Part shown: positions 6,768-23,401 of the stretch, one piece after another
Layout: each line of letters begins with the position of its first letter
Position numbering within the stretch: position 1 is the stretch's first letter
Origin: a virus
DNA length: 23,860 nucleotides
IMG/VR virus record: IMGVR_UViG_3300028045_000098
Coordinates: 1-23,860 of that record
Reading direction: 5' to 3' (one strand)
Program-made: the position numbers and the translations under genes
The notes under the pieces: model-generated
Database searches by the model: none
What the model was told of the DNA's origin: nothing
The model's input: only the letters and a program-made list of their open reading frames with translations

Positions 6768-8327
6768 TTATATTGCTCCAAATACTAAACCGTTGTTAGT
6801 GTGATCTACGTTTGTATCGCTAGTACCTTTGTCTAGCATTATCTTACTATTATAATTATGCATACTTCCAAGCGTAGTAATTCCTAGAATGAAACTACTC
6901 TCAACAAGTCTTGTTTTAACTTTCCACATAACGTTACCTGCACTTACGCTTCCTATACCGAAGCTTCCTGTACTTATTTGTAATCTACTTATGATTCCTG
7001 TTGTGTCAATTTCTGCTGCTTGTAATCTTTTAACGTCAGTTAACATTTCAGCTAGTACATCTGTTAGGTTGCTTATTCTTTCACTTACTCTAACAGTTAT
7101 TACTGTGTCGTTCTCAACATTCTTAGTCGTGAAATCGTAACGAACTTCTAGAATCTCGTAAGTTTGTAACACTACGTTTTGTGATGGTATGTTTACTATA
7201 ACAGTATTCCCTGGGGTGAGGCTGCTTATTCCTTGTAAGTTAAGTGTTCCTTCTACCTTAGGTTCTTTATTTAGTAATACTTGGTTTTTAGCTACGTCTC
7301 TAGCTGTTCTTGCATCTTCAATGTTATCGTCGATAATTACTTTTGTTCTCATATCATAAGTCGCTATGCTTGTCGCGTCGTCAGCAAACTTTATTATTGG
7401 TCTTGTCGTTTGATAATCACAAGTAATAACGCTACCTGATGGCGGTAGACTGTCGTAACCTATAGCTTGACCGCTAGTGAATACGAATTGTTTGTTAAAG
7501 AAATCAACTAAGTAATTAACACCACTTACTTGACTGTTGCTTACGTTAAGTATTCCTCCAACTTGTTCTATTCCACTAGCTATTACTTGTGTGTTGTGAG
7601 GCTCGTTAGATAATGTGAATACACTACCTGTACCGTCGCTAGTGAATGATTCTTGAGGTGCCTTAACAAGTTGTCTCTTACCATAAACAAACACACGATT
7701 GAATACGCTGTCTACATCGCTTTTGAATTGTGATTTAATTACGTTAGTACTGTCTAAAGTTACTCCGCTACTTACGCTGCTTTTTTGTTCGAAGTGAAAG
7801 TCTTTGTTAGCGTCAACGTAGAAGTAGAAGTTCTTGCTTAATTCTGCTAATTGTTTTAGCGCCTCGAATAGTGTTGTTTGCTTGAACTGTATTCTGTCTA
7901 GTGTGATTCCTGTTACGTTAATGTTGTTACGAGTTATTGCTGTGCTTGCGTACTTAGTTAGTATGTCGTCAACTATGACGCTTATTTCAGTGTTAGTATA
8001 CACCTCAGGGGTGATGCTTGTTCTTTGTAATAAACTGGTGTAGTCTCTAACCATTAATGTTATTTCGTCGTTAGCTCCTTTGCCTCGATGTGTTATTTGA
8101 GTTAGTATACCTGTGAATATTAGTGTTGTTGGAGGCTCGCTTGTGTCTGCTAGTAGTTGTACTTGGTCTCCTTCTGTGAAGTCGTTGTTGTGTCTTCCGT
8201 TAGTGTTAGGTATTTGAGCGTTCAATCGGCAACTACTGTTGTTGTCTCCTATACTCTTTACTAATTGTATTTTAGTTTGGTCACGGAACTCAACTCCAGC
8301 AACTTTAAGTATAGTTTGAATAGTCAT
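6768..8327 (-). CDS. Baseplate hub / tail-tip protein (gpD- or gp27-like)
   Basis: The 519-aa protein has the look of a tail hub protein of the phage late-control D / gp27 group: an N-terminal barrel with DQVQLLADTSEPPTTLIF and IFTGILTQITHRG, a VRDYTSLLQR strand, then TEISVIVDDILTKYA and a FKQTTLFEALKQLAELSKNFYFYVDANKDFHFE segment that is typical of the second barrel. The C-terminal part (about residues 400-519) looks like an attachment region for fibres. It comes directly after the tape measure gene, the conserved place of hub or distal tail genes. It would form the ring at the tail tip through which DNA and the tape measure pass. A Tal-type or Dit-type protein is a close alternative. Confidence 0.65.
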   Translation of the reverse strand: MTIQTILKVAGVEFRDQTKIQLVKSIGDNNSSCRLNAQIPNTNGRHNNDFTEGDQVQLLADTSEPPTTLIFTGILTQITHRGKGANDEITLMVRDYTSLLQRTSITPEVYTNTEISVIVDDILTKYASTAITRNNINVTGITLDRIQFKQTTLFEALKQLAELSKNFYFYVDANKDFHFEQKSSVSSGVTLDSTNVIKSQFKSDVDSVFNRVFVYGKRQLVKAPQESFTSDGTGSVFTLSNEPHNTQVIASGIEQVGGILNVSNSQVSGVNYLVDFFNKQFVFTSGQAIGYDSLPPSGSVITCDYQTTRPIIKFADDATSIATYDMRTKVIIDDNIEDARTARDVAKNQVLLNKEPKVEGTLNLQGISSLTPGNTVIVNIPSQNVVLQTYEILEVRYDFTTKNVENDTVITVRVSERISNLTDVLAEMLTDVKRLQAAEIDTTGIISRLQISTGSFGIGSVSAGNVMWKVKTRLVESSFILGITTLGSMHNYNSKIMLDKGTSDTNVDHTNNGLVFGAI

Positions 8328-8328
8328 A

Positions 8329-10002
8329 TTAAACTCCAGAGAGATCCCCTAAAGTCTCACGTAACGCAACTGCTATAGCATCAGCATCAACACCACTAAC
8401 ATTATCAATATTAACAGTAATGCCACCACCACCACCTAAACTAGCAGGATCCTTAACACCAATAATAGTATCATTAGGACTAAAACTAGTAGGAGCCTGA
8501 CCAGGTCTTTGAACAAAATCTTGCTCAGGCTGTTTAGCACCAGCACCAGGAGTAAAACCAGTACTCGCACCAATAAGTCCTTTAATAGCAAAAGCAACTC
8601 TAGCACCAAAACCAAGAGCAGTAACAATACCTTGAAGCTTCTCACTCTCCTTACCAAGATCAGTTATAGCGACCTTCAAATCCTTAACCTTCTTTATCTC
8701 TTCCTTCCACTTAGTAATCTCAGCATCACGATGAGCTATTATTTCAGCACTAGTCTTAGCCTGCTTCTTAACCTGCTCCACAAGAACCAAACCTTTCTTA
8801 GCCTCAGTATCCCTAAAATTATCAAATTCTATTTTCTTCTGTAAACGTAAAGTATCAAAAGAAGTTCTTAACTCATCAACCTTAATTTTCTGAGCAGCAA
8901 TAAGTTCAGACATAGCAGTCTGGTGCATTTCATCTTCAGCATTAGTTGCTATACCTGCTTCTTTCTGTTCAGCTATTTTGTTTCTTAAAAATAATGTTTC
9001 TTCATCTATCTTATTACGAGCCTCAGCAAGTTCAACATCTTTTTCAGCCTCTCCAGAAATAAGAGCGCTAGGTACTAAGCCAAGTATTGAAGACCTAAAA
9101 GCATCACTTGCTTTCTGAGCCTTAAACAAAGCGTCTTCAGTACCAACAAGTGTAGAAGCTAACTCTACTTGATCTGCAATAACGTGTTGTGGAATAGCAG
9201 CTCCAGTCCACATAGCAATGAAACTTTCTCTCATTTGCTCGTTCTCATCAATAACAGTGCCAGCAGTATTACCAACAGTTAACTTAAACTCCTCCCAAGA
9301 AGTTTGTAATTTAGCAATCTTCTCAGCAGTAGTCTCCTCAAGAAGATCCATAGCAGCTACTAAAGCCTGGTTTCTAGAAATTATCTGATCCTCTATTGCT
9401 TGAGTAAGAGTCATTCCAGACTGTGCAACTTTCTTCTGAGCTTCTTCAAGATCTATGATAATTCCTAAATTGTCAAGTATTAATTTACTGTTACGACCAA
9501 TTCCTATGCTTATGTCATTGAAAGCTTGAGTAGCTGTGATACCCATTATTTTAGCTCTGGCAGTAGCGATCTTCATCAATTCAGGAAGATTACTCTTAGT
9601 TAGTCCTAAAGCCATTGCTCTGTTTGCAGCAGCTAGAGTGTCAACAGTACCTACCATTCCATTACTAGCTTTTTTAAGATCTTGTAATAATTGGTCAGCT
9701 CCTTTACCGACAACAAGATTGAAGGATTGCATTGCTTGTTCTCCTTTAATAAAAGCAGCAAATGAATCTTTACCAAACTGTATTAGTGCAGTAGTAGCTA
9801 CAGCAGCAGCGTTAGCGATACCAAAACCTAGTGCTGATTCAGCAACGTTTTGTAAGTCAATAAAGCTTTTAGATCCTTCCTTCTTAGTATTCTTTGTTTG
9901 CTTTTGCAAACCTTTAAGGTCTTTCTGTGTCTTAGCTAAAGCTTTGGTGAACTTCTTATTGTCCGCTGTGATAATTATTTTAAGCTCGTCTACAGTAACC
10001 AT
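8329..10002 (-). CDS. Tape measure protein, short (557 aa)
   Basis: This is the tail-length ruler: an N-terminal coiled coil with regular Lys-rich heptads (residues 15-45), a hydrophobic Ala-rich stretch (about 57-78) that may insert in the host membrane on DNA delivery, a long helical middle with more coiled coil (about 320-440), and a Gly-rich C-terminus. Phrases such as MKIATARAKIMGITATQAFNDI and EETTAEKIAKLQTSWEEFKLTVGNTAGTV are typical of tape measure proteins. At 557 aa it is short, and by the usual 1.5 angstrom per residue would give a tail of roughly 80 nm. It starts right behind the frameshifted chaperone stop (TAATATG). No lytic domain is seen. Confidence 0.8.
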   Translation of the reverse strand: MVTVDELKIIITADNKKFTKALAKTQKDLKGLQKQTKNTKKEGSKSFIDLQNVAESALGFGIANAAAVATTALIQFGKDSFAAFIKGEQAMQSFNLVVGKGADQLLQDLKKASNGMVGTVDTLAAANRAMALGLTKSNLPELMKIATARAKIMGITATQAFNDISIGIGRNSKLILDNLGIIIDLEEAQKKVAQSGMTLTQAIEDQIISRNQALVAAMDLLEETTAEKIAKLQTSWEEFKLTVGNTAGTVIDENEQMRESFIAMWTGAAIPQHVIADQVELASTLVGTEDALFKAQKASDAFRSSILGLVPSALISGEAEKDVELAEARNKIDEETLFLRNKIAEQKEAGIATNAEDEMHQTAMSELIAAQKIKVDELRTSFDTLRLQKKIEFDNFRDTEAKKGLVLVEQVKKQAKTSAEIIAHRDAEITKWKEEIKKVKDLKVAITDLGKESEKLQGIVTALGFGARVAFAIKGLIGASTGFTPGAGAKQPEQDFVQRPGQAPTSFSPNDTIIGVKDPASLGGGGGITVNIDNVSGVDADAIAVALRETLGDLSGV

Positions 10003-10003
10003 A

Positions 10004-10452
10004 TTAACGACGTCCTTTTCTTGACTTTCTTTGTTGTCTTTTCATTATGTTTTCTTTCTTTTTTTGTTGATTATTCCATGAATTTAGTAGTTCTTGAATT
10101 TCTCGGTAAGGCATTAAATCTACTTCTTGTGGTTTCCACCCGAAGGTTTGAGCGCACCATAGTTTTATTTCCCACTCCCATCTTCTTTTTTTTTAAGTTC
10201 AACGTCGGCAGCAGTCTTTATATCTACTTTATCTATTTTTATTAGTTCAGCAAAAGCGTCTAGTATTATAGTTCCTGATTTTGAGCTAATTAGTTCTAGC
10301 TTGTTGAAGTCTTCTTCGTTCATCATTTCTTTGAATAATTCTAGTTCGCTATAATCTCCTATTTTACGTAATCTTATTTGTGCAGCGAAGCTTAGTTCTT
10401 TCAAGTTTAGTGTTTGACCGTCTACTTCTATTGTTTTAGTTTTTAGTGCCAT
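10004..10452 (-). CDS. Tail assembly chaperone, -1 frameshift product (gpGT-like), 149 aa
   Basis: The 0-frame protein begins at ATG 10452 and reaches a run of nine A residues (minus strand; 10186-10194). Slippage by -1 on A-AAA-AAA continues into a frame that reads RRWEWEIKLWCAQTFGWKPQ and ends at TAA 10004-10006, adding 60 residues to the first 89. The -1 frame is closed by a TAA just upstream of the A run (10194-10196), so it can only be entered by slippage there. Order (major tail protein, G, GT, tape measure) and the WCAQTFGW signature match the lambda G/GT system, in which the extension recruits the tail tube protein to the tape measure. The extension is strongly basic at its end. A GTGG-AAA-CCAC hairpin lies further downstream but may not matter. 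Confidence 0.8.
10165..10452 (-). CDS. Tail assembly chaperone, short form (gpG-like), 95 aa
   Basis: The unshifted product is 95 aa, acidic and helical (NLKELSFAAQIRLRKIGDYS and a FAELIKIDKVDI core), as are gpG-type chaperones that coat the tape measure before tube assembly. It ends six residues after the Lys run that encodes the slippery site. It is placed between the major tail protein and the tape measure, the invariant position. Expression relative to the major tail protein may be lowered by the two hairpins in the intergenic region. Only a weak SD-like AGG lies about 10 bases from the ATG. Confidence 0.8.
   Translation of the reverse strand: MALKTKTIEVDGQTLNLKELSFAAQIRLRKIGDYSELELFKEMMNEEDFNKLELISSKSGTIILDAFAELIKIDKVDIKTAADVELKKKEDGSGK
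10186..10194 (-). other. Slippery A9 run for -1 ribosomal frameshift
   Basis: Nine A residues on the coding strand read as Lys-Lys-Lys in frame 0. The tandem slip A-AAA-AAA keeps full pairing of both tRNAs after a -1 move. The run lies about 20 bases before the 0-frame stop and directly after the -1 frame opens. Confidence 0.75.
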
Positions 10453-10462
10453 AATAATGAAA

Positions 10463-10494
10463 CCTAAAGGGAGAACATGACTCCTCCCTTCAGG
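10463..10494 (-). promoter_or_regulatory. Hairpin in the leader of the tail chaperone gene
   Basis: A stem of CCT and AAGGGAG paired with CTCCCTT and AGG, one mismatch and a 10-base loop, lies between the major tail protein and chaperone genes. It may shape relative expression, protect a processed RNA end or hide the GGGAGGAG sequence in its stem. No factor is identified. Confidence 0.4.
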
Positions 10495-10522
10495 AAAAAA
10501 GAGGTGATTTTAATTTATCACC
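10495..10522 (-). terminator. Terminator-like hairpin after the major tail protein gene
   Basis: On the minus strand the stem GGTGAT/ATCACC with an 8-base loop overlaps the stop codon of the major tail protein and is followed by CTCTTTTTT. This looks like a partial terminator that would let most transcripts end after the abundant tube protein and fewer continue into the chaperone and tape measure genes. Confidence 0.5.
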
Positions 10523-11519
10523 ATGGGTTATACAATTGTATAAGGTCGTTAACTACAACTGTTGCAGTCTTAGGCATTATAGTAATTGTTTGTTCTTCAA
10601 CACCATCTCTGGTTGTTGGAGCGTCCATTTCAGTGATTCTACAACCGCTAAAACTCATTAAGCAATCACGACTACCTGCTCCTGCATCTGCTGCAGTAAC
10701 TTCGAATAGTACGTTGAAAGTGCTTCCTCCTCTGAAGTACTCGTCATACAATGTTTTAGTTCTCTCACTAGACGCATCAAGAGTTAAGTCAAGTTGGTAG
10801 TCTCTGTTAGTAGGTATAGGAGTTCCTATATCTCTACTACCGTTAAGGTAGTGTGGTCTTACAAGATTATTACCAGCAGACAAGCTAACGCTTTTTATCT
10901 CGTCATAAACTGTTCCACTAGGTATGTGAACAAGAATATCACTCCATAAGAAAGGTCTTAGTGTAGCTGCTGTTACAGCAGTGCTTGTTCCGCTGCTATA
11001 GTTTACGCTTTGAGCTACATAAGTTAATTCTACTGTTGCTATTTCTCCTTCAGCACAACTAAAAGTCCAATTATCTACGTTGCAACCTACTGCTGTTCTT
11101 ACGAATTCAAAACCGTCTCCTCCAGCGCTAGACTGACTGTCTTCAATAGTGAAGCTTGCGAATGGGTTTTGTGTTCCGCTAGTATAAGCGTAACTGTTAT
11201 CGTTATTTGTTGCTGTGAATGTGTGAATGTATGGGCTTGGGCTTCCACTGTCTACTGTGCTTCCTAGTGTTAGTCCTAAGAATTTCCAGTCTTGTGGGTG
11301 GAATGTTGCTGTTCCTTCGTGGTCTCTTGCTCCGTCTACGAAGATGTCTATGTCTCTGTCTGCTGCTCCTAAGTATCTTAGGTTGTTTACGTTCTCAGTT
11401 GTTGCTATGTTGCTTTCTGTTACTAGTCCAATCCAGTGTCCTGTACCGCTTGTTGCAGCATAGGTACCTGATTCATATTGAAATAGTGTTTTTCCTTGGT
11501 CTCCTACAAATCTTGCCAT
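10518..11519 (-). CDS. Major tail (tube) protein, 333 aa
   Basis: The 333-aa protein begins MARFVGDQGKTLFQYESGTY, a start typical of tail tube proteins, and shows a beta-rich fold with strands such as EIATVELTYVAQSV, DYQLDLTLDASSER and a short helix (TKTLYDEYFRGGSTFNVLFEV) as in the tube-fold domain, closing with EEQTITIMPKTATVVVND. It would polymerise as hexameric rings around the tape measure. Size and the position between tail terminator and chaperone support the call. A good SD (TAGGAGAT) precedes ATG 11519. The extra length relative to about 200 aa tube proteins suggests an inserted surface domain, perhaps residues 90-160. Confidence 0.75.
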   Translation of the reverse strand: MARFVGDQGKTLFQYESGTYAATSGTGHWIGLVTESNIATTENVNNLRYLGAADRDIDIFVDGARDHEGTATFHPQDWKFLGLTLGSTVDSGSPSPYIHTFTATNNDNSYAYTSGTQNPFASFTIEDSQSSAGGDGFEFVRTAVGCNVDNWTFSCAEGEIATVELTYVAQSVNYSSGTSTAVTAATLRPFLWSDILVHIPSGTVYDEIKSVSLSAGNNLVRPHYLNGSRDIGTPIPTNRDYQLDLTLDASSERTKTLYDEYFRGGSTFNVLFEVTAADAGAGSRDCLMSFSGCRITEMDAPTTRDGVEEQTITIMPKTATVVVNDLIQLYNPW

Positions 11520-11547
11520 AATATTTTAATCTCCTATAATGTTATTT

Positions 11548-12009
11548 TTATGTTCCTAGGATGTACTTATACTCCACCGTGATAACTCTACTCTTTGGAG
11601 TGTTCTGTCCATCCTCATCTACATTAACCGCGCTAGTAATACCAAAATCAATTAGTGATGCTTTAACTGTTCCATCACTATCGAACTCAATACCTCTAAG
11701 GTGGTTCATTACTTCCTGTGTTAGGAAGTCTTTTTCTTTCTGGTTTCTTGCCCATACTCTTATTTCGATGGGGATTCTTACCATTAATAATTCTGATTGC
11801 ATGCCTAGCTTTTGGCTGTCTATGTTTGTGTTTTGTACGGTGACTATTGGGTACTTGACTAAGCGTTGTGGGTATCCTGTCATGACGAATTTCTCGCCAG
11901 CAGATCTGCTACTGCTTATTGGGTCTGTGATGTTAGAAGATAGAGTGTCTCGTAATTGTATGACTGTGTCGCTGATGAATGTAACTGTGTTTATAGTGCT
12001 TATCGCCAT
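11548..12009 (-). CDS. Tail terminator / tail completion protein, 153 aa
   Basis: The 153-aa protein follows the gp10-like gene and precedes the major tail protein, the usual place of gpU-like tail terminators, which cap the growing tube and join it to the head. The sequence has an N-terminal helix (FISDTVIQLRDTLSSNI), a central strand pair with RLVKYPIVTVQN and SELLMVRIPIEIRVWARN, then a helix FLTQEVMNHLRGIEF and a terminal strand VITVEYKYILG, which matches the mixed alpha/beta fold of that family. The start ATG has an in-frame TAG upstream and no usable alternative. It has no obvious SD and lies about 50 bases below the predicted transcription start of the 12071-12109 promoter, so unlike the other promoters it has a leader, with a hairpin. 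Confidence 0.6.
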   Translation of the reverse strand: MAISTINTVTFISDTVIQLRDTLSSNITDPISSSRSAGEKFVMTGYPQRLVKYPIVTVQNTNIDSQKLGMQSELLMVRIPIEIRVWARNQKEKDFLTQEVMNHLRGIEFDSDGTVKASLIDFGITSAVNVDEDGQNTPKSRVITVEYKYILGT

Positions 12010-12038
12010 TGGTTTTTGTCTCGCTTGACTACTCTAAG

Positions 12039-12056
12039 GACTCATCGCTTTGAGTC
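12039..12056 (-). promoter_or_regulatory. Leader hairpin and micro-ORF before the tail terminator gene
   Basis: GACTCA and TGAGTC form a perfect 6-bp stem with a 6-base loop, almost at the predicted transcription start near 12058. An ATG at 12045 in the hairpin reads Met-Ser-Pro-stop. It may stabilise the RNA end or tune translation. Confidence 0.35.
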
Positions 12057-12070
12057 TTATAGTATTGTAT

Positions 12071-12110
12071 GTAAAGGTATTATTTAAACCACAGTACAGA
12101 TTATATAATC
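12071..12110 (-). promoter_or_regulatory. Late promoter copy 1 (tail unit) with ATTATATAAT palindrome
   Basis: On the minus strand ATTATATAATCTG, seven bases, then GTTTAAATAATACCTTTAC. The TATA box TTTAAATA is at 12081-12088 and predicts a start near 12058. The palindrome GATTATATAATC (12099-12110) is perfect here and overlaps the TGA stop of the gp10-like gene. Confidence 0.7.
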
Positions 12111-12489
12111 ACCTGAATATCTTGGCTAACTGATCAATAAAGAAATTCTCTAACTTCTTACGGTTGCGCTTAAAACTATTACCAAAATGGTGACGAGCAC
12201 TACGATTGCTAGAACCAAACTCAAGTATAGGACCATACTTAACATTACTACTAACTACTGCTTGTGATTTTGTAGAACTACTACTAACACTAGACCTGAA
12301 ACGACCTGTATCAACACTCATAGGTTCAGCTCTTTGACCACTAATACTAGACTTCACCTCTCCCTCAAGGAATAGTCCTGCTTGTGAGAATGCTTTTTGT
12401 GAAGCTTTACTAGAGTTATTGTTTGCTCTTCGTAATTTTCTTAGTAATTCGTTAGCTCCTCTTAATTCTATAGTGAAGCTTTTAGCCAT
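12109..12489 (-). CDS. HK97 gp10-like neck/minor tail protein, 126 aa
   Basis: The pattern is diagnostic: an N-terminal strand and basic helix (IELRGANELLRKLRRAN), a central VDTGRFRSSVS motif, VKYGPILEFGSS, then a C-terminal basic helix (NSFKRNRKKLENFFIDQL). VDTG.LR.S and YA..vEFG with a closing basic helix define the HK97-gp10 family, which joins head and tail at the neck. At 126 aa it has the usual length. Its ATG overlaps the stop of the head-closure gene, and its stop codon overlaps the palindrome of late promoter copy 1, so the boundary between head and tail transcription is very compact. Confidence 0.75.
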   Translation of the reverse strand: MAKSFTIELRGANELLRKLRRANNNSSKASQKAFSQAGLFLEGEVKSSISGQRAEPMSVDTGRFRSSVSSSSTKSQAVVSSNVKYGPILEFGSSNRSARHHFGNSFKRNRKKLENFFIDQLAKIFR

Positions 12490-12914
12490 TACTCACCAAT
12501 AAGCGATCCAGTAGTTAAACGACGAATATACACTTTCTTCACTACAGGAACACCATCCAAGTCCCACTGGTGAACACCTTTAGGCACTAGAGAGTACTCA
12601 GTAAAACCAGTAATAGGACTACCAATACCAACACGCCAAGTACCAGAAGTCTGAATCGATCCAGCCATATACAAAGCTAAGTCAGCACTATCAAGCAGTC
12701 CTTGTTGTACAAGAACAGCATCATTACTACCCTGAGCAGTCTCAATAGGAGCTGTTAAACCACTAACATAAAAATCAGTACCTGACTGCGCATAAGAAAC
12801 ATCACCATCATAAGAAGTGCCAGAATAAGTTATAGTAAAATACCTGAAACGAACTTGAGTGCCGTTGCTAAGAATCTGCTTCAAATCCTTACCCATGCCC
12901 TCGCCTAAACCCAT
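12489..12914 (-). CDS. Putative head-closure / stopper protein, 141 aa
   Basis: The 141-aa beta-rich protein sits between the connector-type genes and the gp10-like gene, where head-closure (gp16 or FII-like) proteins are encoded. The sequence shows a helix (GMGKDLKQILSNG), strands (VRFRYFTITYSG, TDFYVSGL) and a closing segment HQWDLDGVPVVKKVYIRRL, compatible with the small barrel of stopper proteins that prevents DNA leaking before the tail attaches. I do not see a diagnostic motif, so the call rests on size, fold impression and position. A GAGAGG SD lies about 10 bases before ATG 12914. Confidence 0.5.
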   Translation of the reverse strand: MGLGEGMGKDLKQILSNGTQVRFRYFTITYSGTSYDGDVSYAQSGTDFYVSGLTAPIETAQGSNDAVLVQQGLLDSADLALYMAGSIQTSGTWRVGIGSPITGFTEYSLVPKGVHQWDLDGVPVVKKVYIRRLTTGSLIGE

Positions 12915-12917
12915 AAA

Positions 12918-13211
12918 CTAAAGCCTCTCGATTAATTCTTTAAACAATTCCTCAGCAAGTTCATCACGAGAATTATCCTTACTATGAAGACCATTCTTTA
13001 AAGCAAACTTACGCAACTCTTTAAGACTCATACTCATTAAAAAATCAATAGTCACACTAGGAATTTTAGGAACAACAACCGGTTCTCTGAGCTCTCCGCT
13101 AACCATCTTATAAGAACCAGACTCAATAAGAGCACCAGCATCTTTACTGCTAACTTCATATAACCCTTTGACCGCATGCTTACCTATATACTCAATAATT
13201 ACTTTATCCAT
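12918..13211 (-). CDS. Small head-region protein with SAP/HeH-like C-terminus, 97 aa
   Basis: Residues 1-40 (IIEYIGKHAVKGLYEVSSKD, then ALIESGSYKMV) look like the small domain found in many short phage head proteins encoded between capsid and connector genes. Residues 59-97 (MSMSLKELRKFALKNGLHSK, DELAEELFKEL) match the helix-extended-helix layout of SAP, HeH or Rho-N-like motifs that bind nucleic acid. A role in the capsid, at the DNA or at the connector, is possible but not known. It has clean junctions with both neighbours and no membrane or signal segment. Confidence 0.6.
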   Translation of the reverse strand: MDKVIIEYIGKHAVKGLYEVSSKDAGALIESGSYKMVSGELREPVVVPKIPSVTIDFLMSMSLKELRKFALKNGLHSKDNSRDELAEELFKELIERL

Positions 13212-13212
13212 A

Positions 13213-13596
13213 CTAACCTAACACCCTTTTAAATCTTATAACGCTTCCCAATCTTTTAAGCTTAAGCATTCCACTCTTATGAAACGACTGACTAGCTGTA
13301 AGAACATTACTCCCCTCTCCCTTTTTTATGCTTAGTGGACCTAAGCTAGCGCTGTTATAATCTCCACCTTGTAATTGCATATTAGCAAGAAGCTCAGCAG
13401 TAGACAAATCAACTAGAGCAGGCTGGTACTTCTCAGCAATAGCAACACTACCAATAGTGAAACCACCATACTCTTCCATAAACAACCTTTGCTCATCAAC
13501 AATCTGAATAAGTTCAGCACCGCTAATCGATGTAGGTATGTCATCTACTCTATTCTGAATCCTCGTCGCTATAGATCCCAGCGAAGCCACGACCAT
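13213..13596 (-). CDS. Head-tail connector (gp6/gp15-like adaptor), 127 aa
   Basis: The first 80 residues are helical (SIATRIQNRVDDI, AELIQIVDEQRLFMEEY, ALVDLSTAELLANMQL), matching the helical bundle of gp6- or gp15-type adaptors that form a ring under the portal. A Gly/Ser loop (GGDYNSASLGPLSIKKGEGS) and a basic C-terminal segment follow, as in proteins that insert an arm into the neighbouring subunit. Position directly before the small SAP-like and stopper genes supports it. No catalytic motif is present. Confidence 0.6.
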   Translation of the reverse strand: MVVASLGSIATRIQNRVDDIPTSISGAELIQIVDEQRLFMEEYGGFTIGSVAIAEKYQPALVDLSTAELLANMQLQGGDYNSASLGPLSIKKGEGSNVLTASQSFHKSGMLKLKRLGSVIRFKRVLG

Positions 13597-13597
13597 T

Positions 13598-13972
13598 TTA
13601 TCTGTACCTTACCGTAACTTCAAAAGGAGCAGCACCACTAAGTATAGCCTTAGTATTCAACACTATGTGTTCATTACTCACGTACTTATCAGGTCTAGCT
13701 CCAGCAGCAACACTAATAGATCCAGTACTTAACTGAGTAAGTACTCTAGGATAAAAATGCTGAGTAGTAGCACCACTAGCAGCATCAGTACGCCAAAACT
13801 CAGTACCATTACTAGTAGTTAAAAAAGCACTACCAACACCTTGACTTCCATAAATTAAATCAACCTCTAAGATCTCCCCGTTAACAGGCTGAGAACTCAC
13901 GAAACTACCAGTACTAGAAGCACTGATGGTCTCACTAAATCTATATTCTTTAATACGATTACTTCGAACCAT
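13598..13972 (-). CDS. Small beta-rich structural protein, 124 aa
   Basis: I do not recognise a named family. The 124-aa protein has a short basic start (MVRSNRIKEYRF) and then alternating polar and hydrophobic strands, for example NGEILEVDLIYGSQGVGSAF and NEHIVLNTKAIL, ending PFEVTVRYR. The pattern suggests a beta sandwich. It is the last of six small beta-rich proteins encoded between the capsid cassette and the connector genes, linked by one-base to four-base overlaps. A virion surface (decoration or head fibre) role is inferred from position. Confidence 0.55.
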   Translation of the reverse strand: MVRSNRIKEYRFSETISASSTGSFVSSQPVNGEILEVDLIYGSQGVGSAFLTTSNGTEFWRTDAASGATTQHFYPRVLTQLSTGSISVAAGARPDKYVSNEHIVLNTKAILSGAAPFEVTVRYR

Positions 13973-14316
13973 TATTTATTCCTCCATACATTATAATTTG
14001 GGCCGGTAGCTTTTAGGAAACCGGCACTTGAATTTATTACACCATCGTTACTCTCTTTAACGATTACTAATTTTGCTCCTTTCCAGAACAACCATCCTCC
14101 GCGAAATGCGTGACTGAAAGTAGTTTGTGGTTGAACGCTAGCTATAATCACTTGACGTTCACCATCAGTAGCTATAACAGTAGCCATTCCATCACTCAAG
14201 TTACTTACTAAAAGATCAACTAAGATAAAGTCAGAACGAATAAGCTCAACACTACCCTCAAAAGTAGATTGAACCATACGAACACTAGTCCTAGATAATA
14301 GTATATCGTTACTCAT
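13972..14316 (-). CDS. Small beta-rich structural protein, 114 aa
   Basis: The 114-aa protein is beta-rich with strands FILVDLLVSNLSDGMATVIA and ERQVIIASVQP and the string FRGGWLFWKGAKLVIVKES, which places an aromatic-rich turn before a hydrophobic strand. Its spacing resembles the 142-aa neighbour (DLFVITDIIADAD). Start and stop overlap the neighbours (TAATG). It is probably a virion protein, with the same uncertainty as its neighbours. No Cys, signal or membrane segment is present. Confidence 0.55.
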   Translation of the reverse strand: MSNDILLSRTSVRMVQSTFEGSVELIRSDFILVDLLVSNLSDGMATVIATDGERQVIIASVQPQTTFSHAFRGGWLFWKGAKLVIVKESNDGVINSSAGFLKATGPNYNVWRNK

Positions 14317-14741
14317 GATGAAATGTAATACCCCGCAATAGTCATACTAATATTATTATCATTAGTCTTAGCATTAACAAAACGACCAACAGTACTAACA
14401 ATAAAATTAAGACCAGTAAGTATCTTACTAGTATTCTTAAGCATCTCAAACTGAATTATAGTCTTACTAACAGTAGCTATGTCTGCGTCTTCAGCTTCAT
14501 AAACAATAACCGTAGCTCCATTAGCTCCAACGCCCTTGTCAGCATCAGCAATAATATCAGTAATCACAAACAAATCACTATTAATAGGTTCAAAAAACGT
14601 GTAACCTTGATTATTAACAGCTAATCTAGTGAACACAGGAGTGCTATAACTAAGAGGAGCAGTAACTAACTGACCATTACTAGTAACAATAGCTTTAGTA
14701 CCCTTACCTTCTCCATCGACAATAACTCCCTTAAGACTCAT
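14313..14741 (-). CDS. DGxGxG-type virion protein, 142 aa
   Basis: The N-terminus GVIVDGEGKGTKAIVTSNGQ shares the pattern hydrophobic-x-D/N-G-x-G-x-G followed by an alternating strand and N/G-Q/R-L with the two upstream genes. After it comes a jelly-roll-like body (DLFVITDIIADADKGVGAN, ATVIVYEAEDAD, NISMTIAGYYIS). Such modules occur in phage head-fibre or decoration proteins. The three genes lie in tandem and probably arose by duplication. I infer exposed virion proteins that bind the capsid by the shared N-terminus. A tail location is possible but less consistent with gene order. Confidence 0.6.
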   Translation of the reverse strand: MSLKGVIVDGEGKGTKAIVTSNGQLVTAPLSYSTPVFTRLAVNNQGYTFFEPINSDLFVITDIIADADKGVGANGATVIVYEAEDADIATVSKTIIQFEMLKNTSKILTGLNFIVSTVGRFVNAKTNDNNISMTIAGYYISS

Positions 14742-15289
14742 TACTCTGCCTCTGCAATACTAATCACTCCAGTAAGGTTAGCAGTTCCAGTCTCAATAAG
14801 AACTCCTATAGCCTTACCTTTAGGAATAATTATGTTACTAGTAGTCGATAAATGATACAACGTATCAGCAACAGGACAATTCATAAAAAATATAGTCCCA
14901 GAACTAGTCAAACCAGTAATATTAGTTCCACTTTCTATAGTAGCGGAGGGCGTTTCATTGCTACCAAGATTTCTAACAATAGGAGTTATACTACTACCAC
15001 CACTAGCTGTTCCAGTAACAGAATTAATTTGTATCTGTGTTGCTGCACTAGATGCAAAACGAAAATCAGTAATATTCAAGTTCTTACTTCCAGTATTCTT
15101 AATATACACTACGTAATCATTATTACCAGTAGGATTCAGTGCCGTGAAAGGAACACTCCATAATTTACCATTGGCTGTGTTAATATGTTTATCTTCAGTT
15201 TCAGTAATAGCAAAAGTTCTAGCTCTTCCCTCACTATCAATTTCTAGAGTGTTACCGTCTCCACGTCCGTTTTCAATTACAAATCCCAT
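14741..15289 (-). CDS. DGxGxG-type virion protein, 182 aa
   Basis: The shared N-terminal motif is IENGRGDGNTLEIDSEGRA, followed by FAITETEDKHINTANGKLWS. The body contains VVYIKNTGSKNLNITDFRFA, closely parallel to LYLKNNEDQPLNITAIIVG in the next upstream gene, which supports common descent of the two bodies and not only of their N-termini. Strands end with a KGKAIGVLIETGTANLTGVI segment. It is likely a beta-sandwich decoration or head fibre protein. One Cys is present. The stop overlaps the next start. Confidence 0.6.
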   Translation of the reverse strand: MGFVIENGRGDGNTLEIDSEGRARTFAITETEDKHINTANGKLWSVPFTALNPTGNNDYVVYIKNTGSKNLNITDFRFASSAATQIQINSVTGTASGGSSITPIVRNLGSNETPSATIESGTNITGLTSSGTIFFMNCPVADTLYHLSTTSNIIIPKGKAIGVLIETGTANLTGVISIAEAE

Positions 15290-15885
15290 TATTCTTTAGC
15301 ATCCTCCAAGTGACAAATCAGCGCAATATAACAAGGCAGAGCAGTGTTATTTTCAGGAGGTTCTATAGCTATGCCAATAGTACTTCCCTTAGGAAGAATC
15401 CCGTCAATACTAGCGGACAACCTTCCAAAATCATCTTGGAAAATAAATAAGTGATCAGTACCACCAGTCATAGTAACTCCAGTACCTCCTTTGTAAGCGT
15501 CAACATCAAGGTTTTTACTGTCTCCAAAATTCCTGTTACTATTAATATCTACTGCTGAAGCTGTACTGATTATATCCCCTCCATTAGGGTTTCTCTCTAC
15601 TGTTATTCTTGCAATATCAGTGGTAGTTCCGTTAGTGCTTGTTCCTAGTCCTACTATTATTGCTGTTATGTTTAAAGGTTGATCTTCATTATTCTTCAAG
15701 TATAAGACTGGAGTTTTAGAATCGTTAGTTAATGATAGTTCTCCAGTGTTAATGTTGTAACTGTTTCCTATTTTTGTTGCTTGTAGGTCTTCGTCAATGA
15801 CTACTCCGTTAACGTATAGTCTGTTATTTTCGTTAACTTTTGCTTGACTCCCTGTTCCAGTTCCGTCTTTTATTGTGTTAGCCAT
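15289..15885 (-). CDS. DGxGxG-type virion protein, 198 aa
   Basis: This is the longest of the three related proteins. The N-terminus IKDGTGTGSQAKVNENNRLY carries the shared motif, and the body has LSLTNDSKTPVLYLKNNEDQ and PLNITAIIVGLG, parallel to the 182-aa neighbour, then GILPKGSTIGIAIEPPENN near the end, which matches the neighbour's PKGKAIGVLIETG. A virion surface role is inferred. GGAGG lies about 16 bases before ATG 15885, a long but possible SD distance. Third-position bases shift from A/C-rich in the first half to T-rich in the second. Confidence 0.6.
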   Translation of the reverse strand: MANTIKDGTGTGSQAKVNENNRLYVNGVVIDEDLQATKIGNSYNINTGELSLTNDSKTPVLYLKNNEDQPLNITAIIVGLGTSTNGTTTDIARITVERNPNGGDIISTASAVDINSNRNFGDSKNLDVDAYKGGTGVTMTGGTDHLFIFQDDFGRLSASIDGILPKGSTIGIAIEPPENNTALPCYIALICHLEDAKE

Positions 15886-15896
15886 AGATTGTTTTT

Positions 15897-16190
15897 TTAG
15901 TCCTCCAGTATGTCTCTGTTTTCGACGTTTTCGTCTGTTATTTTGCTTAAGTGAATGTTAGTTTTTAGTAGTTCGTAATGAATTCCTTCTAGTAGTTCTC
16001 TTACTGTTGGGTCTGTTGTGAATAGTGAGTTTCCGTCGTCTACTCCTATGAAACTTTCTTCTCCTGTGCTTGATGTTCCTGTTAGTTTGGTGCTTGTGTC
16101 TAGGTAGAATTTTGTTCCGCTTGTTGTTATTGTAACTTCGTTTAGAATGCTTGTTTTGCTTCCTGTGTTGTATCCTTGTATTTCAGGCAT
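15897..16190 (-). CDS. Small structural protein, 97 aa, beta N-terminus and helical C-terminus
   Basis: Residues 1-45 are beta-like (LNEVTITTSGTKFYLDTSTK), and residues 62-97 form a charged helix (VRELLEGIHYELLKTNIHLS). This is the layout of small virion proteins that trimerise through a C-terminal helix. It is the first gene after the structured intergenic region and probably starts the transcription unit of head-surface genes. AAGGA lies about 9 bases upstream of the ATG, so an SD is available. A palindrome overlaps positions -18 to -33. Function is otherwise unknown. Confidence 0.55.
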   Translation of the reverse strand: MPEIQGYNTGSKTSILNEVTITTSGTKFYLDTSTKLTGTSSTGEESFIGVDDGNSLFTTDPTVRELLEGIHYELLKTNIHLSKITDENVENRDILED

Positions 16191-16207
16191 TTTGTTGTTT
16201 CCTTATC

Positions 16208-16223
16208 CACGATAAGTATCGTG
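16208..16223. promoter_or_regulatory. Palindrome CACGATA-AG-TATCGTG upstream of the 97-aa gene
   Basis: Seven-base arms with a 2-base spacer lie 18-33 bases upstream of ATG 16190. If the mRNA is leaderless the palindrome would cover the TATA position (GATACTTA); if it is leadered it is a hairpin in the 5' leader. Confidence 0.45.
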
Positions 16224-16248
16224 TGCTCTTCGGCGTAATTACTATCAG

Positions 16249-16275
16249 TTACTATTAATTGTTGTTTAATAGTAA
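16249..16275. repeat. Inverted repeat TTACTATTAA / TTAATAGTAA
   Basis: Perfect 10-bp arms are separated by 7 bases in an AT-rich gene-free stretch. The partial repeat TTACTAT occurs again just to the left (16238-16244). Confidence 0.65.
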
Positions 16276-16282
16276 TTAACAG

Positions 16283-16299
16283 TAAATAATCGTTATTTA
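16283..16299. repeat. Inverted repeat TAAATAA-TCG-TTATTTA
   Basis: Perfect 7-bp arms with a 3-base spacer form a third dyad in the same intergenic region, between the terminator and the previous dyad. Confidence 0.55.
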
Positions 16300-16316
16300 T
16301 TATCGTTAAAAGATAT

Positions 16317-16345
16317 AAAAAAAATAAAAAAAAGGTATCTCTACC
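16317..16345 (-). terminator. Terminator after the capsid cassette (GGTA-GAGA-TACC plus T8AT8)
   Basis: On the minus strand, directly after the stop of the 103-aa gene, a 4-bp stem closed by a GNRA-type loop (GAGA) is followed by eight T, one A and eight T. Archaeal terminators rely mainly on such T runs. It would end the abundant capsid transcript. TTTATATC right after the T runs (16312-16319) may be the TATA box of the next unit. Confidence 0.65.
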
Positions 16346-16348
16346 TAA

Positions 16349-16660
16349 TTATAAGTTACCAGTACCAATAGCAGTATAGCTATAGTCAAGACCAGACTGT
16401 CCAAGGAAGGTAAAACTTCCAGCAGCAGCACCAGTTACAGCACCAGGATGACTAGCAGCAGCGCCACTAACAGCCAAAGTAACATTAACTTTAGGAGCTG
16501 CAGAAAAAGCAGTTCCAAAGCTAGCCGTAACAGCAACATTACTTGCTTGAACAGTTCCTGTCTGAATACTAAGGTCAAAACTAGTAGGGCTTCCAGTACC
16601 AATGATACCTTCAGAGAAAGCCTTTACTTGTTCTAATCCGTTTCCTAGTCCATCAGCCAT
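16349..16660 (-). CDS. Small beta-rich virion protein with lectin/fibre-like strand motif, 103 aa
   Basis: Ala/Gly/Thr-rich, 103 aa. The core ASFGTAFSAAPKVNVTLAVS resembles the strand pattern of lectin-like or fibre-tip domains of phages (F-x-x-x-F-x-x-x-P-x-V), followed by a Gly/Ala loop and SFTFLGQSGLDYSYTAIGTG. It follows the major capsid gene with only two bases between, and a terminator ends the unit after it, so it is probably made in capsid-like amounts. A head-decoration or head-fibre role fits. Not a known family to me. Confidence 0.6.
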   Translation of the reverse strand: MADGLGNGLEQVKAFSEGIIGTGSPTSFDLSIQTGTVQASNVAVTASFGTAFSAAPKVNVTLAVSGAAASHPGAVTGAAAGSFTFLGQSGLDYSYTAIGTGNL

Positions 16661-16662
16661 AA

Positions 16663-17520
16663 CTAACTACTCGTAATCTTTGCGATGGCTTCAGCACGTA
16701 ACTGACGTACTTTTAGTCTTTGAGTAACACTTACTGCACTCATGTCGTTGCTTGGAAGTTCAAAACCTTCAACGGTCATTGCTCTCTTCTCTGCGATGAC
16801 GTAAGCTTGTGTGTTATCAAATACGTAACTTGAAGTTGTAGTCATACCAGCGTTTGTACTAACAAGTAATACATTCATACCGTAAAGTGTTCCTAAGAAT
16901 CCTCTTTGTAGCATGTCTGTGTTACCTACTTTGTTAGCTTCAACAAAAGTATCAATATTTTGCAAGTCGTTTAGTACTTCGTTTCCAATAGCGTATGTAG
17001 TTGGAGTGTAGTCCTCATCTCTAAGGTGTTGTATTGCTCGAGTAATGTTTGCAATAGTTACAGTAGCTCCACCAGCAACGGTATTAGCTGCTTGATCAAG
17101 AGCGTCACTGATTACAAGACTGTTCTCGTTCTCAGCAAGTCTCTTACCAGCTAAACGTACGTTCATATCTAGTAAATTCCATTTAGCGTCTTCTAACATT
17201 TCACGAGTGATACGTAGACCAACAGCGAACTTAACAGGTTTCATGTTGAAACTTGTGTATTCTTCCTGATCAATAGTAATGTTAGCTCCTTCAGCCGTTT
17301 GTCTAACAGCCATGCTGTTAGGTGTTGCAAGATCAATATCAATGCTGCTTCCTGGGATATCACTAGGACCATAAAATAAAGCTGCTTCCGATCGAGGAAT
17401 TAGAACTTTCTCTACTTCCTGAACAAGAGTGTCAGCAATCTTTCTAGGTATAAGTAATTGTCCCTCAGTACCTAAAGCAGTACTAAGAAGTTCTCTTACG
17501 TTTGGTAAAATAGTTGTCAT
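16663..17520 (-). CDS. Major capsid protein, HK97 fold, 285 aa
   Basis: The order protease, decoration protein, this gene, and the 285-aa length fit an HK97-fold major capsid protein. The sequence shows an N-terminal arm, an E-loop-like strand (SIDIDLATPNSMAV to ANITIDQEEYTSF), an P-domain with the spine helix (ITREMLEDAKWNLLDMNVRL and AGKRLAENENSLVIS), an A-domain with TYAIGNEVLNDLQNIDTF and LLVSTNAGM, and a closing strand pair VEGFELPSND to VSVTQRLKVRQLRAEAIAKI. It forms hexamers and pentamers of the icosahedral head. No long N-terminal delta domain is present, so scaffolding probably comes from the nested scaffold product of the protease gene. Confidence 0.85.
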   Translation of the reverse strand: MTTILPNVRELLSTALGTEGQLLIPRKIADTLVQEVEKVLIPRSEAALFYGPSDIPGSSIDIDLATPNSMAVRQTAEGANITIDQEEYTSFNMKPVKFAVGLRITREMLEDAKWNLLDMNVRLAGKRLAENENSLVISDALDQAANTVAGGATVTIANITRAIQHLRDEDYTPTTYAIGNEVLNDLQNIDTFVEANKVGNTDMLQRGFLGTLYGMNVLLVSTNAGMTTTSSYVFDNTQAYVIAEKRAMTVEGFELPSNDMSAVSVTQRLKVRQLRAEAIAKITSS

Positions 17521-17522
17521 AA

Positions 17523-17945
17523 TTAGGACCTTCCGATTTGTACTAAAACAAATCCTTCACTGCCTGCGCTACAAAGACTTCTGCCGATAGCTCTACCATC
17601 AACAACACTCTCAATAACTGCATCTCCGCCGTTAACACCAACATTTCTACTAGCTTCAATAGTTCCTGCAGCCGTGATTAGGAAAATTCCTTCGGTTGCG
17701 ATAGCCACTTCTAAGCCACTAGTTACAGTTGATAAAGCTACACCAGCAAAGTTAACTCCGCTAGCTCCAGCTGCTGCTTCAATATCTCCGAAAACAAAAC
17801 TGTTTGCTCCGCTTGAAACAACTCCTGCTGCTCCACTAAGGAAACATAACTGACCACCAGAGATGGTGCCACGTGCCTTAGCAGTAATAATTTTAGGACA
17901 GCCAAAATCTTCTAAGAAGACTGCTCCTGCTGTATTTAGTACCAT
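17523..17945 (-). CDS. Capsid decoration/stabilisation protein (DUF2190-like), 140 aa
   Basis: The small Gly/Ala/Val-rich protein consists of many short strands (ARGTISGGQLCFLSGAAGVV, NFAGVALSTVTSGLEVAIAT, GIFLITAAG, ASRNVGVNGGDAVI), as in the capsid-cement or DUF2190-type proteins that bind capsomer junctions after expansion. It is encoded immediately upstream of the major capsid gene and its ATG overlaps the protease stop. Three Cys are present. The assignment rests on composition, length and position. Confidence 0.65.
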   Translation of the reverse strand: MVLNTAGAVFLEDFGCPKIITAKARGTISGGQLCFLSGAAGVVSSGANSFVFGDIEAAAGASGVNFAGVALSTVTSGLEVAIATEGIFLITAAGTIEASRNVGVNGGDAVIESVVDGRAIGRSLCSAGSEGFVLVQIGRS

Positions 17946-18280
17946 TATTGGTTCCTCCCTTTAAGTCTAGAACTACCAGCTCTAGTACTCATATCAATAC
18001 TTAGAGCGTAACCCTTACCTGCTTCTGCAGTAGATAAAGTGTAACCTTCTAAGTCGTTAGTTTTAGTCTCTTCAATAGATACTTCGCTAACTGTTTTATC
18101 CTCCATTACTGGAGTTTCTGCAACTTTCTCAGCTACAGCTTTTGCTTCTTCCATACTTAACTTCTCTGCTTTAAGAGCTTCTAGCTTCATACTCTCGATC
18201 TCGAGTAGTAGTGCTTCTTTCTCAGAGCGGATAGTTTCTAGAGCGGAATTAGCTTCCTGAATTTTAATTTCTTCAGCCAT
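17945..18280 (-). CDS. Nested scaffold protein from internal start in the protease gene, 111 aa
   Basis: An ATG at 18280 (Met187 of the protease) has a strong SD, GGAGG at 18289-18293, with 8 bases spacing. The resulting 111-aa product is the Glu/Lys-rich coiled-coil C-terminus of the protease gene and ends at the same stop. This mirrors lambda gpC/Nu3, where the scaffold is made from an internal start. It would line the inside of the procapsid and be degraded by the protease. Because the full gene starts leaderless and this one has a strong SD, the scaffold could be made in excess. The start is read directly from the sequence; its use is inference. Confidence 0.6.
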   Translation of the reverse strand: MAEEIKIQEANSALETIRSEKEALLLEIESMKLEALKAEKLSMEEAKAVAEKVAETPVMEDKTVSEVSIEETKTNDLEGYTLSTAEAGKGYALSIDMSTRAGSSRLKGRNQ

Positions 18281-18838
18281 TTTCTTATCCTCCGATACTT
18301 TTTCTGAAACAATACTTTCTTGTATTGCTTGTGAATTTTTGTTATTATAAGATTCCATACATGCTTTGCTGAATCCAGCGTTACTGTCTGCTGGTACAGC
18401 GACTAAGGAAAGTTCTACGAAGTCAATTCCCATTGCTTCTACTCCGCCGCCTTGCTCTTCAGTACGTTGCTTTAGTTCTGAAACCATAGCTCCTATACTT
18501 ACTGCGCTTACTAGTCCTTGATCAATTTTCTCCTGCATTACAGGGTCCATTATGATTCCTTCGAACATTACTGCGTTGTTTTCTGCGCTGAAGAATGCGT
18601 TAGTTGTCTTTCCTACTATGCTTTCTACGCTGTTGATGTGATCTTTTAGTATTGGTTTGTTGGATAAACTAGCTGCTCCTTTGCTTAGTTCTTCTTTGCT
18701 ATAGAATACACCGTTTCTGGTGGTTGTTTCGTTGATTGCTCTTCCTCTTATAATGAATGATGAGCTTCCGTCTTCTTTAACAGTTCTTGAACTTTCAGTT
18801 ATTGGGACGCTGTAAGAAATATTGTGAATAGTATCCAT
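17945..18838 (-). CDS. Prohead maturation protease fused to scaffold, 297 aa
   Basis: Residues 20-155 match the HK97-type prohead protease (S78): FIIRGRAINETTTRNGVFYS, His67 in LKDHINS, Ser114 in SAVSIGAM, and FVELSLVAVPAD, the conserved ELS-hydrophobic-VP string. It cleaves scaffold and capsid arms inside the procapsid. Residues 165-250 are a Glu/Lys/Ala-rich coiled coil, the scaffold part. The ATG at 18838 has no SD but lies 23-30 bases from the TATA box TTTAAATA (18861-18868), so the mRNA is predicted leaderless. The promoter element ends at the stop codon of the upstream zinc-finger gene. It heads the capsid transcription unit. Confidence 0.85.
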   Translation of the reverse strand: MDTIHNISYSVPITESSRTVKEDGSSSFIIRGRAINETTTRNGVFYSKEELSKGAASLSNKPILKDHINSVESIVGKTTNAFFSAENNAVMFEGIIMDPVMQEKIDQGLVSAVSIGAMVSELKQRTEEQGGGVEAMGIDFVELSLVAVPADSNAGFSKACMESYNNKNSQAIQESIVSEKVSEDKKMAEEIKIQEANSALETIRSEKEALLLEIESMKLEALKAEKLSMEEAKAVAEKVAETPVMEDKTVSEVSIEETKTNDLEGYTLSTAEAGKGYALSIDMSTRAGSSRLKGRNQ

Positions 18839-18850
18839 ACTGTATAGTAT

Positions 18851-18890
18851 GTAAAGGTATTATTTAAACGAGAGTTCAGATTATATAATT
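18851..18890 (-). promoter_or_regulatory. Late promoter copy 2 (capsid unit) with ATTATATAAT palindrome
   Basis: Same layout as copy 1: ATTATATAATCTG, seven bases, GTTTAAATAATACCTTTAC on the minus strand. TTTAAATA is at -23 to -30 from the protease ATG, and the palindrome is at about -41 to -52, overlapping the TAA of the upstream gene. Confidence 0.75.
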
Positions 18891-19207
18891 TAATTACTTC
18901 TTTCTTTAGTTAAGTCTTTGAAAACAATACGGCGCCTTGTACGGTGAGTGCTTTTTCTATTGCCTCTTGAAGTTACTGAACTGAATCGTTGACCCATTAC
19001 TCCGGCTGTAGTTCCTTGTAATTCGTTAACTACTCCTTCAAATGAGTTAGTAGGTCCTCCACCGCTTCCAGTGTAATCGCTCCATTCTCCTACTACCACT
19101 ACGTCTTCGAAGTCTATTGCTTCATCGCCATTAGTGCACACGTGTAATATATCGTTATTTCCTATTGCTGAGGCGAAACGTTGATCGCATTGAGAACACC
19201 AAAACAC
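18890..19207 (-). CDS. Small zinc-finger protein with basic tail, 105 aa
   Basis: The start codon is GTG (19207), one base inside the TAG of the preceding gene (TAGTG). The N-terminus FWCSQCDQRFASAIGN followed by LHVC has a Cys-x2-Cys and a His-x-Cys that could hold one zinc ion. Acidic and Gly-rich stretches follow (residues 28-75), and the C-terminus is strongly basic (NRKSTHRTRRRIVF), suited to binding DNA or RNA. Similar small zinc proteins occur between portal and protease genes of some tailed viruses. It may help packaging or portal assembly. Unknown function. Confidence 0.65.
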   Translation of the reverse strand: MFWCSQCDQRFASAIGNNDILHVCTNGDEAIDFEDVVVVGEWSDYTGSGGGPTNSFEGVVNELQGTTAGVMGQRFSSVTSRGNRKSTHRTRRRIVFKDLTKERSN

Positions 19208-19374
19208 TAGAATAACTCCAAAAGTAATTTCTTTGCTGCTCCTTTAGTAGCTTTATTGTACTTAATAGTGCAAGTTCCACAGAGTACTAGTCCGTGTAAT
19301 AGTACGAATCCAGGTTCTTTATCGCACTTGGCACAAACAGGACCCTTAACAATAGTAGAATCAATCTTCATCAT
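19207..19374 (-). CDS. Zinc-ribbon microprotein, 55 aa
   Basis: Translation from ATG 19374 gives 55 aa ending at TAG 19207-19209. It contains PVCAKCDKE and, 15 residues on, LCGTCTIKY: two Cys-x2-Cys knuckles, the classic zinc ribbon. A Lys-rich helix closes it (KATKGAAKKLLLELF). It overlaps the portal stop as ATGA and shares TAGTG with the following zinc-finger gene, so three genes are chained by overlaps. A second ATG at 19371 would shorten it by one residue. The protein is too short for many gene finders. A nucleic-acid or protein-binding role is likely; which one is unknown. Confidence 0.75.
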   Translation of the reverse strand: MMKIDSTIVKGPVCAKCDKEPGFVLLHGLVLCGTCTIKYNKATKGAAKKLLLELF

Positions 19375-21332: not shown

Positions 21333-21345
21333 TAGTGTTGTAGTA

Positions 21346-21385
21346 GTGAAGGTATTATTTAAACGATAGGACAGATTATATAATT
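21346..21385 (-). promoter_or_regulatory. Late promoter copy 3 (portal unit) with ATTATATAAT palindrome
   Basis: ATTATATAATCTG, seven bases, then GTTTAAATAATACCTTCAC on the minus strand, one base different from copies 1 and 2. TTTAAATA lies at -24 to -31 from ATG 21332. The palindrome overlaps the TAA stop of the large terminase gene. Confidence 0.75.
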
Positions 21386-22769: not shown

Positions 22770-23211
22770 CTTTGTAAATATCTACCAGCTCATTCCATAA
22801 AGTTCCTTCAACCTTAATCTTCTTAGCAACAACATCTTTGTGGCCAAACTTCTCAAGAATCTCAGCATAAGCCTTACCCATGTCTACAAGGTTTCGACGA
22901 ATACTAGACTTATTAGTTACTGAAATGTCAGGATCATCAAGGTCTTTTTGACAAATAGCAATGTTTTTCTTTAAACAGTCAGCAATATGCCAACCTGCTT
23001 TATACACATCTACGGGTCCTTTCTCTCGAATTATACGATCTTTCCAGTTGTTTAATGTTTGGTCCGGGACACCTGTCTCACGACTCATCTTTCGTAAATT
23101 CACGCCCCAGACGCCAATTCTATCTAGATCCTCTTCTAGACGGTGATAAATTTCTTTACCTTTACCTGTCTTGTAAGACCACTTCTGTTTCTTGCCTTTT
23201 ATTGCACCCAT
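22756..23211 (-). CDS. terS: Terminase small subunit, 151 aa
   Basis: Residues 36-62 (GVNLRKMSRETGVPDQTLNN, then WKDRI) form a helix-turn-helix that would recognise the packaging site. Helices follow (VYKAGWHIADCLKKNIAICQ and RRNLVDMGKAYAEILEKFGH), suited to ring oligomerisation, and a C-terminal part that meets the large subunit. Length and the position directly before terL fit. The ATG overlaps the stop of the 62-aa gene (TAATG). Confidence 0.75.
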   Translation of the reverse strand: MGAIKGKKQKWSYKTGKGKEIYHRLEEDLDRIGVWGVNLRKMSRETGVPDQTLNNWKDRIIREKGPVDVYKAGWHIADCLKKNIAICQKDLDDPDISVTNKSSIRRNLVDMGKAYAEILEKFGHKDVVAKKIKVEGTLWNELVDIYKDGDE

Positions 23212-23399
23212 TACTCTTCTATAACCTCTAGCTTAAACATTATTTTCTTACCCTCAAAACCCTTAGGCAAACGAACAACACCAACAGCTATGTTACATGA
23301 TTCTGGTACGAAATACCAAGATCTAGTGCATGGTTTCATTGGTCCTTTGCCTCCGCTTGTGGTTCTGCATACGTAGTTCTGAGTGTTAATACTTGCCAT
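23211..23399 (-). CDS. Hypothetical protein, 62 aa, with three Cys
   Basis: The small protein has three Cys (YVCRTT, KPCTRSW, ESCNIAV) and beta-like strands (AVGVVRLPKGFEG, IMFKLEVIEE). It could be a small metal- or disulfide-containing domain, but the number of Cys is odd and no His pairs with them clearly. It is coupled to the small terminase by TAATG. I do not recognise a family; the conserved place directly before terS hints at a packaging or early head role. Confidence 0.55.
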   Translation of the reverse strand: MASINTQNYVCRTTSGGKGPMKPCTRSWYFVPESCNIAVGVVRLPKGFEGKKIMFKLEVIEE

Positions 23400-23401
23400 A
23401 A

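Follow-up and report, generated by a model that had tools for sequence, protein, structure and literature searches.

A probable lambda-type −1 frameshift in the tail assembly chaperone genes of a probably archaeal virus and its relatives

How can a protein domain be translated when it lies in the −1 frame at the end of another gene and seems to have no start codon before its core? In lambda and most long-tailed phages, frameshifting that gives G and G-T is the textbook case. The same question is raised by a locus on the minus strand of virus record IMGVR_UViG_3300028045_000098, of which a stretch of 23,860 nucleotides (hereafter the window) has been analyzed. An earlier note had read this locus as a lambda-type −1 frameshift in the tail chaperone of a probable archaeal virus. 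The direction of the shift, the slippery run and the chaperone identity turned out to be conserved, but slippage of RNA polymerase on the run of nine A's (A9) had been left out of consideration and is weighed here.

Layout of the tail locus and the shift site

The coordinates of the features are given in Table 1. The G/T locus sits between the genes for the tail tube and the tape measure, as in the lambda-type order, and this order, already recognized in the earlier note, holds in the window and is conserved in relatives. Further upstream of the tail tube, domain and PHROG matches point to a terminase, a portal that carries a Mu gpF domain as a fusion, and an HK97-type capsid protein. The portal-Mu gpF domain fusion, at 19371-21332, is of the same kind as that in gp7 of the haloarchaeal virus HGTV-1. 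Elsewhere in the window, between genes 16349-16660 and 15897-16190, an A8-N-A8 stretch on the plus strand (16317-16333), which is T8NT8 in the coding direction, resembles an oligo-T terminator of archaea.

Table 1. Features of the tail locus in the window
Feature	Positions	Strand	Basis and remarks
Tail tube protein gene	10518..11519	−	Directly upstream of G; Pfam Phage_tube_2, E 6e-13; PHROG 290; 42% identical in G001
G, frame-0 tail assembly chaperone ORF, 95 aa	10165..10452	−	ORF; flanked by the tail tube and tape measure genes; relatives have a homologous G
−1 frame TAA, 5′ bound of the shift window	10193..10195	−	
A9 slippery run	10186..10194	−	In-phase A_AAA_AAA heptamer at 10192-10186
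Predicted downstream RNA hairpins, possible stimulator	10122..10181	−	Begin a few nt past A9
T, −1 frame, 60 codons and stop	10004..10186	−	PHROG 9001; AlphaFold; homologues in 51 other loci
Tape measure protein gene, 557 aa	8329..10002	−	Directly downstream of T; PHROG 3779 tape measure, E 0.0019; PHROG 32115; position

Nine T's on the plus strand form the A9 of the coding minus strand, which is the sole homopolymer of nine or more in the 23,860 bases. The 3′ end of G reads, in frame 0, GTT GAA CTT AAA AAA AAA GAA GAT GGG AGT GGG AAA TAA, and its stop at 10167-10165 lies 18 nt past A9, in agreement with the earlier description of a run in lysine codons about 20 bases before the stop. The −1 frame TAA, which had also been described correctly, overlaps the first two A's of A9, so that a shift is possible only from that point on. 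Beyond it the −1 frame is open for 60 codons, from 10186 to 10007, and is closed by a stop at 10006-10004; this is one base before the tape measure ATG at 10002 and not two as had been noted, a trivial difference. Within the long ORFs of the window, only 1.7% of positions have by chance an open −1 frame of 62 codons. The 60-nt region of the predicted hairpins has an MFE of −16.2 and a z-score of −2.33, with 3 of 200 shuffles equally stable, and the z-score is only −0.46 when a stretch of 101 nt is folded. Shine-Dalgarno-like upstream stimulators were sought as well; none is present in the window, and they are only scattered among the loci of relatives.

The T domain and its frame across the family

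Is the product of the −1 frame a real protein? Scanned alone, the T peptide matches the tail assembly chaperone family PHROG 9001 with an E-value of 7e-5, and its AlphaFold2 model, made with 19 relatives, consists of three helices with a mean pLDDT of 92.9. The top match in a fold search is an uncultured archaeal virus protein (probability 1.00, E 0.09), and two of the next matches are annotated as tail assembly chaperones (probability 0.94 and 0.72, E 0.5-0.8); because of these E-values, 0.09-0.8, the fold matches are supportive and not significant. Together with the homologues in other loci, the family match and the predicted fold bear out the protein-like content noticed earlier, and they indicate that the −1 frame encodes a genuine domain of the tail-assembly-chaperone family. 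A tblastn search of T against named phages gave no match. G has no family match of its own in Pfam and PHROG scans; its model is poor (pLDDT 63), and a fold search with it gave no meaningful PDB matches. Searches with G alone, and with the tail tube and tape measure as single-sequence queries, found no relatives, and a PDB sequence search gave nothing meaningful.

Many related contigs were instead gathered by terminase and capsid searches, and a T-domain profile was applied to them frame-blind. Counting the loci between tail tube or G and tape measure gave 52 true loci, the window included; one further match to the profile, in L242, is not accompanied by G and was dropped from the count as a false positive. 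T lies in the −1 frame in 51 of the 52 loci, among them the window, and in the +1 frame in one (L210), and in none of the 52 is it fused in frame with G or present as a separate gene. Chance falls far short of explaining this pattern across the family. All of the first 20 loci have a −1 frame T that ends near the start of the tape measure, and the overlap contains an in-phase XXXYYYZ heptamer in 18 of them, where 1.6-3.3 would be expected (P 6e-14 or less). A comparison of substitutions between close relatives, akin to the one that the earlier note had suggested, gave a third-position excess in the part of the T frame that lies beyond the stop of G (by codon position, 7, 4 and 19 for the pair L204/L168 and 12, 13 and 28 for L239/L241), which fits a translated frame. 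The single exception, L210 (14252-14450, plus strand), is the closest homologue of both G (37% over 79 aa, the best match of G) and T of the window. Its T is in +1 and its A-run is an A6, and one added A would restore the −1 frame; the +1 frame may reflect an indel or a fault in the assembly, or the site may truly be of a −2/+1 type.

The shift site itself is less constant. A shift motif is recognizable in 50 of the 51 −1 loci, L108 being the one that lacks it: A9-A10 in 21, U_UUU in 17, A6-A7 in nine and GGGAAAA or CCCAAAA in three. The U_UUU class is mostly GAT TTT CAR at the end of G and occurs in relatives without A-run heptamers (L175, L216, L225, L207, L208, L196, L187, L199, L243, L194 and others). 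An in-phase NNT-TTT is found in 17 of the 18 loci without A-run or XXXAAAA heptamers, against 2.4 expected, with a P value of 7e-15 that is post hoc, since the class was noticed on inspecting the exceptions. On a tail-tube tree, parsimony requires the site type to have changed at least 17 times, a rough count because many branches of that tree are poorly supported. One such change can be seen between L239 and L241, sisters on the tail-tube tree, which share ...AAAAAAGTCT: a C-to-A difference converts A6 to A9 beside an unchanged A_AAA_AAG. L239, with its A6G, also has a strong predicted stem. As far as the compared sequences indicate, the T-frame architecture is kept while the slippery sequence keeps changing.

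Ribosomal frameshifting and its alternatives

Taken as a whole, lambda-type programmed −1 ribosomal frameshifting that yields G and G-T is the model we regard as probable, with good confidence. Most ribosomes would translate G to its stop, giving the 95-aa protein, and a minority would slip back one base on A_AAA_AAA within A9 and continue through T, giving a G-T of 149 aa that would read VELKKK/RRWEWEIK across the junction. If the two parts act as their counterparts in lambda do, G would cover the tape measure protein and T would bring in the subunits of the tail tube. At the level of sequence, the basis of the model consists of the architecture, the −1 direction, the slip site, the conservation of T and the missing usable start of T; the making of the G-T fusion, the ratio of G to G-T and the chaperone roles are what we infer beyond it. 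Several findings count against the model: L210, nearest to the window in both proteins, carries its T in +1, for which a pure −1 model offers no explanation, L108 has no motif, and G has no match to a chaperone family. The others concern the A9 itself and lead to RNA polymerase.

If RNA polymerase slipped on the A-run, some transcripts would carry one A more (or two fewer) than A9, and T would be in frame with G without any shift of the ribosome. Nine A's is the length at which bacterial polymerases slip (PMC5009743). The A-runs at the sites exceed what a heptamer requires: 21 of 30 are 9 or 10 long, whereas 8 of the 218 in-phase A-runs elsewhere in the same sequences reach at least nine (P 3e-17). 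Downstream structure is enriched at the short sites (P 2e-5 versus control windows) and not at the A9-A10 sites (P 0.2), and short sites differ from long ones with P 0.012; this analysis of structure is exploratory and uncorrected for alternative window choices. RNA structure is accordingly not supported as a universal stimulator. There is also a precedent, dnaX, which uses either mechanism in different bacteria according to the work of Larsen (2000) as it appears in the reference list of PMC3711429. However, 30 of the 51 loci (A6-A7, U_UUU, GGGAAAA, CCCAAAA and the one unrecognized) have motifs too short for slippage on long homopolymers and yet keep the −1 architecture, which makes a ribosomal −1 shift the simplest common mechanism. 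Longer A-runs are also associated with more frameshifting in ribosomal cassettes (PMC3711429), and slipping of an archaeal polymerase at A9 is undocumented in the literature that we found. The window has both A9 and a predicted structure 3′ of it, so ribosomal frameshifting is favored there. On this evidence polymerase slippage is rather improbable, but a serious rival.

Another reading gives each mechanism its own loci: within one family, polymerase slippage at structureless A9-A10 sites and ribosomal −1 frameshifting at structure-backed short heptamers or U_UUU would repeatedly replace each other. We put this forward tentatively, as possible and somewhat doubtful.

Could T instead be a separate gene with its own start, translated without any frameshift? 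The open T frame of the window does contain an ATG, its first possible start, at codon 27, but this ATG follows FGWKPQEVDL and is inside the conserved core. The first ATG, GTG or TTG of the T frame in relatives is often later, at codons 43-75, as with the TTG at codon 60 in L194. From these positions, T is judged to be without a usable start codon before its core. An arrangement of two separate genes with their own starts and no slippery run, named in the earlier note as speaking against a frameshift, was sought in the 52 loci and found in none. A separate T gene is thus very improbable, and this reading was rejected on the start positions and the count of loci. Least probable of all, and refuted for the family, is an error of assembly or sequencing in the A-run that hides one fused frame or a G alone: homopolymers are error-prone and L210 is off by one at its A6, but the −1 offset is identical in 51 different loci, 30 of them without an A-run longer than seven, and no in-frame fusion occurs in any of the 52.

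Host and known systems

The virus probably infects a Nanobdellota archaeon (Woesearchaeota/Nanoarchaeota), one of a group of small symbiotic archaea, as judged from contigs of metagenome-assembled genomes (MAGs), and all host links depend on MAG binning. The window terminase falls in a supported clade in which only the MAG contigs of a Woesearchaeota (L017) and a Nanoarchaeota (L020) have a named host, and a Nanobdellota genome, G226, encodes a capsid protein 58% identical to that of the window. These links lend indirect support to the archaeal virus proposed earlier. The best match among annotated phage terminases is that of haloarchaeal HGTV-1, with 26% identity, and one relative, L018, is binned in a bacterial MAG. 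A DNA search with positions 8000-23860 of the window against 371 Nanobdellota genomes gave mostly short matches at background level. The contig of G226 that encodes the similar capsid protein (C14; L161) has head genes, but its portal gene runs on the other strand, and a search for a tail tube on it found none. Tailed proviruses of Woesearchaeales are already known, in a paper that does not mention frameshifting (PMC11705971). Among the relatives, the terminases of L115 (G008) and L114 (G221) match in two pieces, about 100 and about 300 residues apart, possibly because of inteins, and a minor head ORF on the minus strand of L110 (3350-4597 in reverse-complement coordinates) contains an intein-like (Hint) sequence, CFLADTLVKTETGHKPISEIKIGEKVL....

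How does this locus compare with known systems? With lambda it shares the order of tail tube, G, G-T and tape measure, a T reached only by a −1 shift near the end of G, and an in-phase slippery heptamer, which in one relative, L082/L094, is G_GGA_AAA, close to the G_GGA_AAG of lambda. It differs in that the heptamer of the window is A_AAA_AAA within A9, that no sequence similarity to lambda G was found and that the window is known from sequence alone. The dnaX genes resemble the family in that homologous genes have either a short A-rich heptamer with RNA structure or a long A-run. This is a comparison of how things work only: dnaX is an unrelated gene, and the split of mechanisms in the window family is one by correlation only.

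Nearer in probable host are the tailed viruses of haloarchaea. In what PMC5009743 and PMC8211752 say of them, −1 frameshifting in G-T is predicted for HVTV-1, HCTV-1, HCTV-2 and HCTV-5, and +1 frameshifting for HSTV-2. They too are tailed viruses of archaea for which this recoding is predicted, but their hosts are halophiles, whereas the window family is distant from them, probably infects Nanobdellota and also has long A-runs and U_UUU. In HGTV-1 (L150, 16200-17200), gp20, which directly precedes the tape measure, is offset by −1 from gp19, with no slippery heptamer in the overlap; the two may represent a different type of G-T that has escaped annotation. One −1 frameshift in archaea, that of a fucosidase, is called demonstrated in a review (PMC8211752).

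Since −1 sites in haloarchaeal tail chaperones were predicted earlier, the present case is not the first of its kind. What is new is a probable new host group together with this unusually rich series. Annotation pipelines will tend to overlook T at all these loci. About 50 natural, diverse and probably archaeal sites of one gene pair are now available, with a known expected outcome and with sister loci that differ in type, and such a series makes the rules of slippery sequences, the need for RNA structure and the question of ribosome versus polymerase testable for archaea.
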